Shown: positions 1-7,888 of the stretch, piece by piece
Position numbering within the stretch: the stretch's first letter is position 1
Layout of the letters: each line of letters opens with the position of its first letter
NCBI RefSeq assembly: GCF_900205865.1
Contig: NZ_LT906662.1
Coordinates: forward strand, 1,116,001 to 1,180,000
From: Thermoanaerobacterium sp. RBIITD
GTDB lineage: Bacteria; Bacillota; Thermoanaerobacteria; Thermoanaerobacterales; Thermoanaerobacteraceae
Length of the DNA stretch: 64,000 nucleotides
Reading direction: 5' to 3'
Program-made: the position numbers and the translations under genes
The notes under the pieces: generated by a model
Seen by the model: the letters and a program-made list of their open reading frames with translations, nothing else
The model's database searches: none
Told to the model about the DNA's origin: nothing

Positions 1-2284
1 ATGTAGCTACTTTTGCAAGACCTTGATTTGCTGATTTTGCACTGCTGTAATCCCAAGGTACCAAGTTTCCGTGTAAGTCTGATGTTGCAAGAACGGTCAC
101 TGTTGTACCGTTTGATACAGGCATCGTAGCCGGTGCTATTCTTCCATCCGTGCTTGCTGTAATATGATGTGCTGCTTTTATTGCCTCAACAAAAGCATCT
201 CTTACAAGCTTCTGTGTATCGACATAACTTGATGCTACGGCTGGATCTTTAAATTCATCGAATTTATCTCCACCTGTACCCATGAAGTTATTTGTCGCAA
301 CAAGATATTTTGTATTCATATCAATAGGAGTACCATCAGATTTTTTCATATCAAATACTCTTTGCATTGATGGTTTAGATGGATCATATTTAAATTTTAG
401 TCCTGCTACCTGTATGCCTTTTCCACCATCCTGTACTGCCTGTTCAAGAACTGTTTTAATCTGTGAACCTGTCATGCTGAGTGTAACTATCGTATTGTCA
501 AATGGCATTAAGGTATACATTGTCCCAAGTGTTATATCACCTTTTGGAACATCTATTCTTAATCCACCATTATTTCCAAAACCGAAATCAGCATAAACTG
601 CGTCTTTAACAACTTCTGATGTCCAATTACCAAGTGCTGAATCGCCATATGGACTTGAACTTTGATTTCTTGTTAAGTCAACATCTGCTGTTCCTATAAC
701 TTCACTAAATTTCTGTCCAACTTCCTGATTTGCTTTATCTACAATTGCCTGTACATCAGGGTCTACAACTGGGTTCGCAGTATTATATAGATTATAATCA
801 TCATTCCATGTCATATCACCTGTTGTAACTGTTCCATCAGGATTTAATGTTATTTTCAAATCTATAAATCCATATCCAGAACTCATCGCGATTCCAACAG
901 GAATGTTGTTTATTTTTGTTGTAACTTTACTATGTGTATGCCCACCGAATATTGCATCAACACCATGTACTTGATTTGCAAAGTCTACGAGGTTTCCCGT
1001 TGTTGTACCATTGTTTGTAAATGCTCCCATATGTGCGAGAACAACGACTATTTGTGCACCCTGTTGTCTTAACTTAAGCGCGAGGTTATTTACTATAGGT
1101 GCAGGGTCTTTAAAATCTACATCTTTTACAAATGCTGGTAGGATTATATTAGGAAATTCTTTATTGTCAACAATACCGATAATGCCTATTTTGACCCCAT
1201 CTTTTTCAATCATTACATATGGTTTTGTATAACTTACTGGACTACCAGTTGTTTTGTCATATACATTAGCTGCCAATACTGGTATTGATGAATTTTTAAG
1301 TGTAGCATTCTGTGTATCTATTACTTTGTCAAGGCCCCAATCATATTCATGGTTTCCAAGTGCCATCGCGTCAAAGCCGATACTTTTCAACATATCTATA
1401 ACAGGTTGTCCATAAAGTACATTTGAAAGCGGTGTTCCCTGGAACATATCACCGCCTGATAATATAACCGTATTAGGGTTAGCTGTTTTTATATCCTTTA
1501 TTTGTTTTGCAAGCACTGCGCCTCTTTGCTGTTTTATAGCTGTACCATCGCTTAATTTTGCATCTGCCTGAAGATTTCCGTGAAAATCTGTTACTTCTAT
1601 AAAATCAAATGTTTTAGAATTTTGCTGGCTTGGTTGTGAAGGTGTAATACTGCTTTCATCTATTGGCAATAATTCTAATTTATCATTAAAACATGAACTT
1701 ATTGCAACAATATCATATTTACTATTTTGACCTTTTGTTAGACCTTGAAGATATGTTTTTAATGAAGCACCAGCTTGTGCATATACAATTGCACTATTTG
1801 TGCCATCAGTTGTAATATAAACACCACCAGAACCAGAATTATAATCTCCTGTTATCCATGCATTCTTAACCTTAATTAACTGTCCTTGATGCTGTGAAAT
1901 TTGATCTAATGTAACTTCAATAGGTGTAACTGCGGGAAATTTATTTGTTTGTAAATATGTAAAGTTACTTACTGTTATTTCCTTATCATTCTTATAGCTT
2001 GAAACTTTACCTGTTACTTGAATATCCTGACCTGGTTGTACACTTGTTATATTACCATTATATAAGCGAATACCTGCATTTCCATCCTGTATCCAGGCGC
2101 TACCATCAATAACTGCGGATACCTTACCTTCTGTCGTAACTGTTACACCATCTGCAGCAGCTCTTGCCTGTGCTATTGTAATAACACTATCATCTGCAAA
2201 AGCCTTGTCAACATTAATGCCTGTAAACATGCTAAAAAACATCAATGCTGCTAAGACATACGCAGTAATTTTTCTTACCTTCAT
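1..2284 (-). CDS. Tandem secreted 5'-nucleotidase / cyclic-nucleotide phosphodiesterase (partial, C-terminus beyond window)
   Basis: The frame is open from an ATG at 2284, with AGGAGG seven bases upstream, to the window edge, so only the first 761 residues are seen. A signal peptide (about residues 1-30) is followed by an OB-fold-like region (about 31-130, GKVSAVIDGSAWIQDG) of the kind found in YhcR-type nucleases. Then comes a complete UshA-family unit: metal motifs TDFHGN, GGDMFQG, GNHEYD, AHMG and GGHTHS, then a 5'-nucleotidase C-terminal domain ending near GGDKFDEF. A second metallophosphatase unit starts with ATSDLHGNLVPWDY just before the edge. B. subtilis YfkN also joins two such units. 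The expected role is extracytoplasmic dephosphorylation of nucleotides for phosphate and nucleoside salvage. The end of the protein, where a wall anchor or dockerin might lie, is not visible. Confidence 0.9.
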   Translation of the reverse strand, partial: MKVRKITAYVLAALMFFSMFTGINVDKAFADDSVITIAQARAAADGVTVTTEGKVSAVIDGSAWIQDGNAGIRLYNGNITSVQPGQDIQVTGKVSSYKNDKEITVSNFTYLQTNKFPAVTPIEVTLDQISQHQGQLIKVKNAWITGDYNSGSGGVYITTDGTNSAIVYAQAGASLKTYLQGLTKGQNSKYDIVAISSCFNDKLELLPIDESSITPSQPSQQNSKTFDFIEVTDFHGNLQADAKLSDGTAIKQQRGAVLAKQIKDIKTANPNTVILSGGDMFQGTPLSNVLYGQPVIDMLKSIGFDAMALGNHEYDWGLDKVIDTQNATLKNSSIPVLAANVYDKTTGSPVSYTKPYVMIEKDGVKIGIIGIVDNKEFPNIILPAFVKDVDFKDPAPIVNNLALKLRQQGAQIVVVLAHMGAFTNNGTTTGNLVDFANQVHGVDAIFGGHTHSKVTTKINNIPVGIAMSSGYGFIDLKITLNPDGTVTTGDMTWNDDYNLYNTANPVVDPDVQAIVDKANQEVGQKFSEVIGTADVDLTRNQSSSPYGDSALGNWTSEVVKDAVYADFGFGNNGGLRIDVPKGDITLGTMYTLMPFDNTIVTLSMTGSQIKTVLEQAVQDGGKGIQVAGLKFKYDPSKPSMQRVFDMKKSDGTPIDMNTKYLVATNNFMGTGGDKFDEFKDPAVASSYVDTQKLVRDAFVEAIKAAHHITASTDGRIAPATMPVSNGTTVTVLATSDLHGNLVPWDYSSAKSANQGLAKVAT

Positions 2285-2416
2285 ACTCTCTCCTCCTATT
2301 GTAATAAATTTTTTTATTTTCATATAAATACAGATTTACCTCCATAAAATTATTTTCTATAAATAATAAACCACATTTTATTAAACATAACGTACGTGTT
2401 AATTTAATGTAAATAA

Positions 2417-2493: not shown

Positions 2494-4545
2494 TTACTTC
2501 TTTTCTAATATCTTGTTCGCAATTATTATTAAGTCCTCAAGGCCTACAGAGTTATCATTATTAACATCCGCAACCTTCGCTTCATTCCAGTTTGGACTCT
2601 TGTCATTAAGTCCATAATATTTTGCTACAATTCCAAGGTCACCAACACTTATACTTCCATCATTATTTAAATCATAGGCATTACCGCTTATTGTTATACC
2701 TTTAATAGCTGTTTGTGCGGGGAATTCATGTCCATCACCATCTGCAAGTGTCGCATCACTTATTGTGATATTTCCGCTGCCAAATGTCTTTGCTGTAAAT
2801 TTTAAATTAAACAATTGCGTATCACTATTTATGGCATTCTGAAGTCCTTTGCTGGCAAGTAAAACTCTAACCACACCAGGTTTTGTATCTGGTATATATA
2901 CAAGATTGCTATTTGTTTGATCAAGGCTATTAAATTCAAACATATTTTGATCATAGTGAATTGTTATATCCTGTGCATAAACAGTTTTTGTAACATCTTT
3001 TATGCCAACTGAAACTGTAAATTCATCACCCTTGTTAACTTTATCTGGTCCATTTATTGTCATTGATGGTGTATTGTTACTCTGATCATTTACATTTACA
3101 AATACAGGATTTGAATAGAACCATAAATCTTTGTATGCTTTTGTCGCATCATTCGCTCCCATTAATTTATCATCAAGAGGATTTCCATCCGCATCTGTTT
3201 CATTCGGCACATTTAATCCGAGATTAGTACCTCTTAATCTCAAATATTTGCTATTATTAACATTATTTAGCGTATATTTTATTACATTATATCCTTCTGC
3301 ATCTTGTGTCCATTGACTTTTATCAAATCTCGCAATTACTTTAGTCGTAGAATTTGTGTCTTTATTATAATCTGCTGTGCCAGGCTCTACCTTTCCTGTC
3401 ACATCACCTGCAATCAAATCAACATGATCTACGCTTACAGGATCTCCGTTATTATTTTTTTCAGGGCTTTTAAATCTAATTGTTACTTCAACATTTCCAC
3501 CTTTATTTACTTGTAATGTTTGTCCCATTCCTACATATTCGCTTCCATTGCTTGCTTTAAAATCAAGTGCATTTATTAAATCGCCATTTACAATGAAGCT
3601 ATTGCCAGAACGCAAACCTACAATTAATGATTTGTAATCTTTATTTTGTATATATGTATACGTCTTTGAATACTCTCCTGGCCAAAAATCACTGCTAATT
3701 GAATGAAAATCTGAATTTACAAAAATCCAAAAATGACGACCTTCGCCAAGAAGAGCATCCCATAATCCACCAACTTTTGCAATCATATAGTCTGCTCCAC
3801 CATATGTCGTTGCCCGTGGATCTGTACTGCCATACTCGCCTCTATTACTTGCTCTTTGATGTCCAGGGAATCCTTCCATACCAATTGCTACATCTGGTGC
3901 TGCATTATTAAAATCCCTTATATCTGCTATTGTATATTTTAATGCTCTTGAAGGATGGTTTATGATAAAATAGCTTGAATCCTTGTAATTATCCTCAAGC
4001 CATTTTACAGCAGCAACCGCGTCAAGATGTGTAACATTATGCTTTTCCATTCCATAGACACTTCTGCTTGTATCAGTATCCTTTTGGTCAAACATGTATT
4101 CAAAATCACTTATTGATGTTGGTTCATTAGATACTATTCCTACACTTGCATGTTCATGTGTCGGAACATTCCACTCAAGGCCCTGAATTATAAGCTTGTT
4201 TGGATAATATACTGACCTTGCTACACTTATTATTGGATATGATCTGTCTTTTAGAGATACCCAGCGCCACTCAGCCGGTATTGTCTGTCCATTTTCATCA
4301 CGTGAAAATTTACCTCCATGTTCTGAATTTGCAAACCAATCAAGTCCATATTGATCAAAAGCATGTTGTAACACATCCATCTCTTTATAACTTCCATCTG
4401 TCAAAAATGTATGGTTATGAAAATCACCAGTTACCCACATGCCTGTCTCTTGAGCATTTGCAGTCGGTATATGCGCATTTATTAAGCCAAGTACTATCGC
4501 TGCCACGATAAAAATGCTCATCAATTTTTTTGTTATCTTTGCCAT
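2494..4545 (-). CDS. Secreted PHP/CehA-type metallophosphoesterase with cohesin and dockerin domains
   Basis: 683 residues starting at an ATG with AGGAGG upstream. Residues 1-31 form a signal peptide. The catalytic part opens with the PHP metal motif D41-F-H-N-H45 and SEHGG (about 74-78), with later histidines in NHPSR and NSDFHS, as in CehA/PHP-type phosphoesterases; the substrate is unknown. About residues 500-620 resemble a cohesin domain (GDEFTVSVGIKD, ITIHYDQNMFEF). The last 60 residues are a type-I dockerin: two calcium loops, DLNNDGSISVGDL and DVNNDNSVGLEDL, each followed by a short helix. A dockerin and a cohesin in one chain is unusual. The next gene upstream encodes an SLH-anchored cohesin, so the enzyme could be held on the cell surface by a cohesin-dockerin contact (inferred). 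The organism is not expected to have a full cellulosome. Confidence 0.85.
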   Translation of the reverse strand: MAKITKKLMSIFIVAAIVLGLINAHIPTANAQETGMWVTGDFHNHTFLTDGSYKEMDVLQHAFDQYGLDWFANSEHGGKFSRDENGQTIPAEWRWVSLKDRSYPIISVARSVYYPNKLIIQGLEWNVPTHEHASVGIVSNEPTSISDFEYMFDQKDTDTSRSVYGMEKHNVTHLDAVAAVKWLEDNYKDSSYFIINHPSRALKYTIADIRDFNNAAPDVAIGMEGFPGHQRASNRGEYGSTDPRATTYGGADYMIAKVGGLWDALLGEGRHFWIFVNSDFHSISSDFWPGEYSKTYTYIQNKDYKSLIVGLRSGNSFIVNGDLINALDFKASNGSEYVGMGQTLQVNKGGNVEVTIRFKSPEKNNNGDPVSVDHVDLIAGDVTGKVEPGTADYNKDTNSTTKVIARFDKSQWTQDAEGYNVIKYTLNNVNNSKYLRLRGTNLGLNVPNETDADGNPLDDKLMGANDATKAYKDLWFYSNPVFVNVNDQSNNTPSMTINGPDKVNKGDEFTVSVGIKDVTKTVYAQDITIHYDQNMFEFNSLDQTNSNLVYIPDTKPGVVRVLLASKGLQNAINSDTQLFNLKFTAKTFGSGNITISDATLADGDGHEFPAQTAIKGITISGNAYDLNNDGSISVGDLGIVAKYYGLNDKSPNWNEAKVADVNNDNSVGLEDLIIIANKILEKK

Positions 4546-4568
4546 GTCCCCTTCCTCCTTTTATTTAT

Positions 4569-4619
4569 TAATGGTAGTATCTGTTTACATATTTAGTAAA
4601 TTTTATTAATACTACCATT
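4569..4619 (-). repeat. Long inverted repeat upstream of the PHP/cohesin/dockerin gene
   Basis: AATGGTAGTAT (4570-4580) and ATACTACCATT (4609-4619) are perfect 11-base arms with a 28-base AT-rich loop. It lies between the SLH-cohesin gene and the downstream gene, ending 24 bases before the latter's start. It may be a terminator of the upstream gene or an operator; the sequence does not decide. Confidence 0.4.
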
Positions 4620-4740
4620 TATATTTTATCAATTTTAAGTTAAGCTTGTATTAAAATAACGTTAAATTTATGTAAATTTGTCTCAATATACCATAATAGC
4701 AAAAGCATCAATAAATTAAGCCTTAAAATACATTCTTTAT

Positions 4741-6369
4741 TTACATGTTATTTGTCTTCTCTAATATTCTATATAATACGGCTGCGGCTTCTGCTCTTGT
4801 CGCATTACTCTTTGGTGCAAATAGATTACCAGATTCACCAGTCATCAAACCTGTTTTTGATGCATTTGCAACGACTATTTTTGCCCAATCACTTATAATG
4901 TTATCATCATTAAAAGAAGTTTTACTTAGATTTTCTTCTTTATAACCGCTCATCTTTTCATATACTCTCATTATTATTGCAGCCATTTCTTCTCTTGTTA
5001 TATTTTTATCTGGATTCATATTTTTGCCGTCGCCTTCTATAATTCCTTTATCATATGCTGCCTGTATAGCATTTGCATACCATGCATCGCCTTTTACATC
5101 GGCAAAGCCACCTTTATATGTCACTTCATTTATGCCAAGCATTCTTACCATCATTGATGCAAACTGAGCTCTTGTAATATTTCTATCCGGTGCATAATTT
5201 TCGTTATCTATACCTTCTATAATATGCTTTGCTGCAATTACCCCAATTACATCCTTTGCCCAATGGCTATTTGAAACATCTTTGAAAACTTTATTGTATT
5301 CAAATGCAGCATACTTTGAAAAATGAGCCGCATTAAAAGTAACTGTACCATTGACTTTATCTGCTTTACCACCTATATATTCCCACTTTCCTGCACTTTC
5401 ATTGTAATAATATATACCTACTTTACGATAGTCATTAATGCTATTCGCTTTAATTGTTATTGTAACACCCTTATTTACACTAACATCAGTATTTCCTGAT
5501 TTAACATTTATATCAAGAGTATTTGAAACAGGTGACATACCATTTAATGAAGATTCTTTCCCAGCATTTTTAATCGAGATTTCTAAATTTCCAGATACAC
5601 TGCTTAAATTTAATGCATTTGCATCGAGTTTAATGTTTGCATCTTCAGTTTTTATTATTAAATCTTTTCCCTTCGCAATAGCGTTTTTAATTGAGTCTAC
5701 AGGAATTGACACTGATTTTTCAGATGCATTATTAATTGTGCTTAAATCAATATTAATTGTATTTGCATCTGAGTTTATTGCATCATTAATCTTATTAACA
5801 TCTACTGTTAATGTAGCCTTTCCATTTTGTACACTTACATTTCCTAATTCACTCAGCTGAGGTTCTGTAGGTTTCTGACCTGAGCTATTGCCTGTTCCAC
5901 TTTCAGATATAACAATATTAACATCCTTATTAACTGTATATATATTTGATTTTGCATCCTTGTCCGCTATTTTTACAGTATTTAAGCTTATCTTTGCTGT
6001 GCCACTTGATTTTGCTTTAAATGTAAATGTTACTAAATCAAGATTGCCATTTACCATATCTGCATTACCCAGTTTTGTACTAGCATATGTAATTTTATTA
6101 TCGCCAGTTTTATTCAGCTCAAAACTATTTGATAATCCGGATTTATATGAAACTATGTCAAGCTTGTCCGAATCAAAGTTGAGGACAGTTTCAAAGCCAT
6201 ATAAATTTTTGATATTACTTCCACTGATTGTTATTGTAAATGTATTGCCCCTTGTAACATTTGTTGGACCCAAAACAGAAAAATTAGGATTATCATCTGC
6301 CATCGCATTAATTGGAATGATTACTAAAATACTTAAAAGTATTCCTAATAATATTGTAAATCTTCTCAT
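4741..6369 (-). CDS. SLH-anchored cohesin-domain surface protein
   Basis: I place the start at the ATG at 6369 (MRRFTILLG), which has GGGAG seven bases upstream; an in-frame ATG at 6405 lacks a ribosome binding site. The 542-residue product has a signal peptide (1-24), a cohesin-like domain (about 28-155: GNTFTITISGSNI, ETVLNFDSDKLDI), a beta-rich linker of about 200 residues, and three SLH domains at the C-terminus (about 360-540; each with a TRAQFA or TREEMA-type motif). SLH domains bind pyruvylated secondary cell-wall polymer, so the protein should sit in the cell envelope. The gene directly downstream encodes an enzyme with a dockerin, making this a candidate single-site scaffoldin. The cohesin could instead be a non-cellulosomal homologue used for other protein contacts. 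Confidence 0.85.
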   Translation of the reverse strand: MRRFTILLGILLSILVIIPINAMADDNPNFSVLGPTNVTRGNTFTITISGSNIKNLYGFETVLNFDSDKLDIVSYKSGLSNSFELNKTGDNKITYASTKLGNADMVNGNLDLVTFTFKAKSSGTAKISLNTVKIADKDAKSNIYTVNKDVNIVISESGTGNSSGQKPTEPQLSELGNVSVQNGKATLTVDVNKINDAINSDANTINIDLSTINNASEKSVSIPVDSIKNAIAKGKDLIIKTEDANIKLDANALNLSSVSGNLEISIKNAGKESSLNGMSPVSNTLDINVKSGNTDVSVNKGVTITIKANSINDYRKVGIYYYNESAGKWEYIGGKADKVNGTVTFNAAHFSKYAAFEYNKVFKDVSNSHWAKDVIGVIAAKHIIEGIDNENYAPDRNITRAQFASMMVRMLGINEVTYKGGFADVKGDAWYANAIQAAYDKGIIEGDGKNMNPDKNITREEMAAIIMRVYEKMSGYKEENLSKTSFNDDNIISDWAKIVVANASKTGLMTGESGNLFAPKSNATRAEAAAVLYRILEKTNNM

Positions 6370-6559
6370 CCACAATCTCCCTTTCTTTTTATTGTTAAAA
6401 TTCATTTAAATAAAAAAATATGCTGAATTTTATTCTAATATATAATTGTTAAATTAATATAAAGTCTTTGTTATATGTTTGTAAAATTATTAGCTATATT
6501 TTTGAGCTATAATTAATAAATTCCATCTAACATATATCATATTTTATATATTGATATTA

Positions 6560-6586: not shown

Positions 6587-6676
6587 TTTGTAGAATATAT
6601 TTATTCATTTAAAAGTTTTATATATTATCTTGAATAAATTTTTCTATTTTGATTATTTTATGATGAGGTGATCATT

Positions 6677-7888
<1,212 letters not shown>

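Follow-up and report, generated by a model that had tools for sequence, protein, structure and literature searches.

A cohesin-dockerin gene cluster of Thermoanaerobacterium sp. RBIITD with a possible role in phosphate acquisition

Introduction

Cohesin-dockerin assembly is regarded almost entirely as a strategy for the degradation of polysaccharides. What would such modules do on enzymes of the phosphoesterase type? The question is raised by a locus of Thermoanaerobacterium sp. RBIITD that lies partly in the window, a stretch of 64,000 nucleotides (contig NZ_LT906662.1, positions 1,116,001 to 1,180,000, forward strand). An earlier note on this DNA had described a minimal pair of neighbouring genes, a secreted metallophosphoesterase with a dockerin and an SLH-anchored protein with a cohesin-like domain, as a scaffold with one site for one enzyme. 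The analysis presented here places the pair in a cluster of four genes, which probably encodes a surface phosphoesterase assembly that is induced by phosphate starvation and held together by cohesin-dockerin contacts, with no conventional scaffoldin. The only cohesin-dockerin set of this culturable thermophile would then serve phosphorus acquisition, apparently wired into the Pho response.

Results and Discussion

The cohesins and dockerins of the genome lie in one cluster

The complete 3,402,993-bp genome of Thermoanaerobacterium sp. RBIITD was searched with the profiles for cohesin (PF00963) and dockerin (PF00404) at E<=0.001. Three cohesins and three dockerins were found, all within 1,109,438-1,122,267. 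They belong to four consecutive minus-strand genes, which form a 13-kb cluster that is split by the window edge. The features of these genes are as follows, with positions in the window unless the genome is named.

4741-6405, minus strand: gene 1, a secreted anchor of 554 amino acids with an N-terminal cohesin, a linker domain and three SLH domains
5914-6264, minus strand: anchor-type cohesin of gene 1, residues 48-164, PF00963 36.0 bits (cut-off 24.1)
4756-5289, minus strand: three SLH domains of gene 1, PF00395 125.8 bits in three stretches
2494-4545, minus strand: gene 2, a secreted CehA/McbA-like (PHP) metallohydrolase of 683 amino acids, followed by a cohesin and a dockerin
3352-4437, minus strand: CehA/McbA-like catalytic domain of gene 2, with the PHP-type metal motifs HNH, EHGG, HP and DFH
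2680-3078, minus strand: chain-type cohesin of gene 2, residues 490-622, PF00963 61.5 bits (cut-off 24.1)
2500-2676, minus strand: type-I dockerin of gene 2, residues 624-682, PF00404 27.5 bits (cut-off 22.9)
1-2323, minus strand: N-terminal half of gene 3, which is truncated at the window edge (complete gene at 1113881-1118323 of the genome, 1480 amino acids)
1109432-1113790 of the genome, minus strand: gene 4, wholly outside the window, 1452 amino acids, with a dockerin and no cohesin

All four proteins carry signal peptides and all reading frames are intact. Gene 1 combines a cohesin with SLH domains in one protein, which is the definition of an SLH-anchoring scaffoldin; its start is more likely at 6369 than at 6405, given a good ribosome-binding site. 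Genes 2 and 3 share the order enzyme, cohesin, dockerin, and with one cohesin and one dockerin each they are monovalent adaptor scaffoldins by definition, with added catalytic domains. Gene 4 is an enzyme with a dockerin only. The catalytic domains of all three dockerin proteins are of the phosphoester or phosphodiester type.

The two genes of the original pair are thus as described in outline, a secreted metallohydrolase that ends in a type-I dockerin and, upstream, an SLH-anchored cohesin protein, and their modules pass at profile and fold level. The count of one cohesin overlooked the enzyme's own cohesin, which precedes its dockerin, and in place of a single site there are four proteins with three cohesins and three dockerins, two of the enzymes bearing both modules. 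The adjacent 5'-nucleotidase that had been pointed out is present; it also runs past the window edge and ends in a cohesin and a dockerin, and beyond it lies the fourth gene, which had gone unseen. No further dockerin was found in the genome at the same threshold. A multi-cohesin scaffoldin, already reported missing from the window, was found nowhere in the genome, the three cohesins being spread over three proteins, and none of the genome's three dockerin proteins is a plant-polysaccharide hydrolase. The cluster is therefore not a cellulosome.

The enzymes of the cluster

The catalytic domain of gene 2 is that of a metallohydrolase; the label of metallophosphoesterase given in the earlier note does not hold for the calcineurin-like family, the match being to the PHP-type CehA/McbA family instead (NCBIfam NF038032, 70.4 bits, E 1.7e-19, below the cut-off of 80 bits). 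No solved structure matched this domain by sequence at E<=0.01. A second CehA/McbA metallohydrolase is encoded in the same genome at 2678744-2680120 (239 bits), and a PHO-like array precedes it. This array suggests a role in phosphate acquisition for a poorly characterised family.

The gene 3 protein comprises an OB domain, a 5'-nucleotidase, a 2',3'-cyclic-nucleotide phosphodiesterase, a cohesin (PF00963 52.7 bits, cut-off 24.1) and a dockerin (PF00404 26.7 bits, cut-off 22.9). The enzyme is of the YfkN type (two matches each to PF00149 and PF02872; NF006934, E 4.6e-204), and the cut-offs of the longer NCBIfam architectures are not reached. YfkN of Bacillus subtilis is extracellular and induced by phosphate starvation (PMC4744853). 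A core YfkN-like paralogue, conserved across the family, is found at 829706-833380 of the genome; in place of the cohesin and dockerin of gene 3, its C-terminus has what read in the sequence as SH3-like repeats. The two genes share about 1.4 kb at 98-100% DNA identity, whereas their first halves are only about 71-79% identical. Such a tract inside diverged copies points to recent gene conversion or recombination.

The gene 4 protein is made up of an NAGPA phosphodiester glycosidase, Big domains, a Cu-amine-oxidase-N-like domain, a calcineurin-like phosphoesterase (Metallophos), a further Big domain and the dockerin. The dockerin scores 22.1 bits in hmmscan, just under the cut-off of 22.9, and 27.3 bits in the genome search, over it. 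Immediately beyond gene 4 is a minus-strand pair encoding an FtsX-like ABC permease and an ATPase (L007:3219-5693), which is preceded by a perfect PHO-box array (L007:5970-6008, minus strand).

Relatives of the cohesins and dockerins

The predicted structures of both window cohesins have the cohesin fold. For the gene 1 cohesin (predicted local distance difference test, pLDDT, 85.8) the best PDB match is 2vo8, with Z 17.7 and a root mean square deviation (rmsd) of 2.2 A over 130 residues; for the gene 2 cohesin, taken from the model of the cohesin-dockerin tandem, it is again 2vo8, with Z 18.4 and rmsd 1.8 A over 129 residues. This structure is a non-cellulosomal cohesin of Clostridium perfringens (NanJ), and it is followed for both window cohesins by a long run of cellulosomal cohesins. 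By sequence, too, non-cellulosomal cohesins of C. perfringens come closest among those solved, and they include one chain of the NagJ-NagH complex 2OZN; the other chain of this complex is the second-best match of the dockerin profile among solved structures.

The three dockerins keep the calcium-loop residues in both repeats and have a common [VFI]-G-D-[LI] signature in the first repeat. In gene 2 the dockerin directly abuts the cohesin, both calcium-loop repeats are kept in the alignment, and the predicted model has the helices. The gene 4 dockerin is the more divergent, with 49% identity to the gene 2 dockerin against 62% for the gene 3 dockerin. In a tree of cohesins, the anchor cohesins of Thermoanaerobacterium and Paenibacillus form a clade of their own (100/100), apart from all enzyme-borne cohesins.

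The complete genome G003 has a single dockerin, which is of the same class, and its cohesins are exclusively enzyme-borne ones of the chain class. This dockerin class is therefore paired with chain cohesins by exclusion. Beyond the cluster dockerins, the RBIITD genome has no other candidate partner for the anchor cohesin.

PHO boxes precede the first two genes

PHO boxes with an 11-nt direct repeat are general for the PhoP regulator family (PMC4415409). The pattern used here was four TTHAYA hexamers, TT(A/C/T)A(C/T)A, as direct repeats with an 11-bp period. The elements found at the cluster are as follows.

6447-6485, minus strand: PHO-box array before gene 1, TTTACA-ATAACA-TTTATA-TTAACA, 11-bp period, one mismatch
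4638-4676, minus strand: PHO-box array before gene 2, TTTACA-TTAACG-TTAATA-TTAACT, two mismatches; a fifth hexamer, TTGATA, continues the register
2386-2413, minus strand: weaker PHO-like element before gene 3, TTTACA-TTAACA and a degenerate third hexamer, three-hexamer score 16/18, p about 0.09, alone not significant

The two arrays in the window compare with 0.06 expected, and one of 100 shuffles reaches two. Genome-wide there are 32 matches to the pattern and nine to its reversed control, and positive controls are among the best sites. Five of the seven sites with at most one mismatch precede pstS, pstC-pstA-pstB-phoU, a ugp-like operon, gene 1 and the ABC transporter just beyond gene 4; the remaining two fall within unrelated genes or close to them. 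Sites with two mismatches lie upstream of the genes for a diglucosyl-diacylglycerol synthase-like enzyme, a PhnS-like binding protein, the core YfkN-like paralogue and the second CehA/McbA protein. No such array was found, at the same score threshold, before the cohesin or dockerin genes of the other cohesin-dockerin loci scanned.

PhoP control of the cluster is likely, because the arrays before genes 1 and 2 match those before pst and ugp, because they are absent at those other loci, and because YfkN responds to starvation in B. subtilis. The reading as a surface display with a phosphorus theme and outside any cellulosome, proposed from the window alone, is supported, and these boxes strengthen its phosphorus theme.

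Several other elements were seen. In the gap between genes 1 and 2, near the gene 2 start, a hairpin whose stem has 12 bp (ATGGTAGTATT...GATACTACCAT) lies at 4566-4623 on the minus strand, without a run of T. Behind gene 2, at about 2418-2446, a terminator-like hairpin precedes the weak element of gene 3. No Rfam family reached its gathering score in the first 7 kb of the window. In Paenibacillus aestuarii a PHO-box-like array with two mismatches (L078:16784-16822, plus strand) stands before a metallophosphoesterase gene beside genes for glycoside hydrolases (GH) with cohesin and dockerin; this record is partly N-masked.

A proposed assembly and its alternatives

At low phosphate, PhoP bound to the PHO boxes would switch on the anchor gene and at least the first enzyme gene, as the positions of the sites suggest. 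The SLH domains of the anchor would hold it to the wall, where it would present one cohesin. Both the metallohydrolase and the YfkN-like nucleotidase may attach by their dockerins, each presenting a further cohesin for the next dockerin enzyme, and the gene 4 protein, with its dockerin only, would cap the chain, giving the order anchor, enzyme, enzyme, cap. Candidate substrates are nucleotides, cyclic nucleotides and other phosphomonoesters and phosphodiesters, and the freed phosphate would be imported by Pst. As two of the three enzymes carry both a cohesin and a dockerin, the assembly can extend past one site. We tentatively propose that enzymes which are both cargo and scaffold form a daisy chain under PhoP control, with one SLH-bound cohesin as its starting point. 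In that case the genome's cohesin-dockerin system as a whole would be devoted to phosphorus and not to polysaccharides; on balance we hold this specific form with less than even confidence.

Some observations weigh against this proposal. The action of CehA/McbA proteins on phosphoesters is not an established activity, and the gene 2 match stays under the family cut-off. Neither gene 3 nor gene 4 has a strong PHO box directly before it. The best model of the gene 2 cohesin-dockerin tandem has a predicted template modelling score of 0.66 and a pLDDT of 81.6, the others being worse, and a contact in cis cannot be read from it. Lastly, with the anchor cohesins in so distant a clade, one dockerin class might not serve both cohesin types, and the chain would therefore be shorter.

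That last point leads to the main rival, a two-layer assembly with a switch of type, in which the dockerins of the two cohesin-bearing enzymes bind the anchor cohesin only and the gene 4 dockerin alone binds the chain cohesins. There would be no open-ended chain, and each anchor would hold one enzyme and one gene 4 protein. The separate clades of anchor and chain cohesins and the greater divergence of the gene 4 dockerin agree with this arrangement, and type switching is known in adaptor scaffoldins (PMC11557425). The GDL-like signature is however common to all the dockerins, and in Thermoanaerobacterium Bu65 the only dockerin detected is on a protein with both modules, whose own cohesin would be left empty (a draft genome, 89% complete). 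We consider the two-layer complex rather unlikely. The promiscuous chain remains our first choice because the dockerin class fits chain cohesins by exclusion and because there is no other candidate to bind the anchor cohesin.

The tandem could also close in cis, the dockerin folding onto its own cohesin to give a self-capping stalk or a storage form in place of a link. A cohesin does adjoin a dockerin in many proteins of this group, but the spacer of a few residues probably disfavours docking on the side face of the cohesin, and the anchor cohesin would be left mostly without a partner; we judge such closure very improbable. The cluster might also be what is left of a larger system of the cellulosome kind, or might serve opportunistically to capture dockerin proteins of foreign origin; to this idea we give hardly any weight. 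Scavenging of this kind has been suggested for Paenibacillus guangzhouensis (PMC11557425), and none of the other genomes searched from the genus Thermoanaerobacterium has gene 2 or gene 4, which suggests that the locus was acquired or retained alone. A matched set of three cohesins and three dockerins in one cluster, with intact frames, a common phosphate theme and PHO boxes, argues otherwise.

Distribution and neighbouring loci

Homologues of gene 2 are absent from the eight other genomes of the genus and sporadic in other families, where they stand alone or are fused straight to SLH domains, and no close homologue of gene 4 was found in 25 relatives. A scan of genome contigs with the whole gene 2 protein confirmed nothing, and one with the cohesin-dockerin tandem alignment led to Paenibacillus and Bu65. 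In one locus (L057) the PHP enzyme is fused to SLH domains. Together with the SH3-like repeats of the gene 3 paralogue, this suggests that related enzymes are held at the surface by other anchors elsewhere and by cohesin and dockerin here.

Divergent from gene 1, window 6668-7888 on the plus strand encodes a DNRLRE-like domain with a collagen-like (GPT) repeat behind it and a further domain at the C-terminus; we take the product to resemble a protein of the spore-surface type.

Other small cohesin or dockerin loci were met in the search. Four loci in other Thermoanaerobacteria (L028, L029, L030, L031) encode a GH53 galactanase that carries three SLH domains and either one or two cohesins and, next to it, a small lectin-like/Big4 dockerin protein. 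In genome G104 (L072:4522-8449) a secreted, SH3-containing and probably wall-lytic dockerin protein has directly behind it a cohesin-like protein that ends in a membrane anchor; the two are another one-site pair outside a glycan scaffold. A trio is conserved in several distant Clostridia-like genomes (L032, L034, L073-L075, L077): one member is TonB-like, the second is secreted and ends in a cohesin-like domain, and the third is a coiled-coil protein that has an SLH-like domain at its N-terminus; no dockerin was detected in the genomes with this trio that were searched.

Comparison with known systems

The RBIITD cluster offers a minimal and probably thermostable set of three cohesins and three dockerins for a direct test of chain assembly from single-cohesin enzymes, and a possible reason why non-cellulolytic genomes retain a few cohesins and dockerins. 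A literature search, with most subscription journals outside its coverage, returned no description of a cohesin-dockerin system dedicated to phosphate or of a dockerin phosphoesterase under phosphate starvation.

Gene 3 belongs to the same enzyme family as YfkN of B. subtilis. To our knowledge, no cohesin-dockerin module occurs on B. subtilis YfkN.

The cellulosome of the Acetivibrio thermocellus type and the mucinolysome (PMC12997984) share cohesin-dockerin logic and wall anchoring with the RBIITD cluster, which differs in having neither a multi-cohesin scaffoldin nor a polysaccharide hydrolase among its dockerin proteins. The C. perfringens enzymes (NagJ/NagH, 2OZN; NanJ, 2VO8) also bear cohesins and dockerins and are the closest solved relatives by sequence and fold; they are however glycosidases that are linked pairwise, with no SLH anchor (PMC12997984).

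Minimal sets of adjacent cohesin and dockerin genes are also found in the same genus or class. These are a GH53-cohesin-SLH protein paired with a CBM-like/Big4-dockerin protein (G002, G003, G023, G032), and a DUF4855-cohesin-dockerin protein with a cohesin-SLH anchor in Bu65. Their cargo is of the galactan type or of no known kind, and no PHO box was found in their fetched regions at the threshold used here.

The nearest parallel in architecture is Paenibacillus guangzhouensis, where glycanases of the form GH-cohesin-dockerin act as monovalent adaptors beside cohesin-SLH anchors (28 adaptors and five anchors, PMC11557425). The same combination was found here in further Paenibacillus genomes (L078-L083), some of whose proteins have a FIVAR-like spacer between cohesin and dockerin. 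Both genera have small anchors, no large scaffoldin, and homologous chain and anchor cohesins. In Paenibacillus the cargo consists of glycoside hydrolases, whereas RBIITD has phosphoesterases, a 3:3 set in one cluster and PHO boxes. Enzymes with cohesin and dockerin beside SLH-bound cohesins have therefore already been described for glycanases, and what seems new in RBIITD is the phosphate cargo and the apparent control by PhoP.

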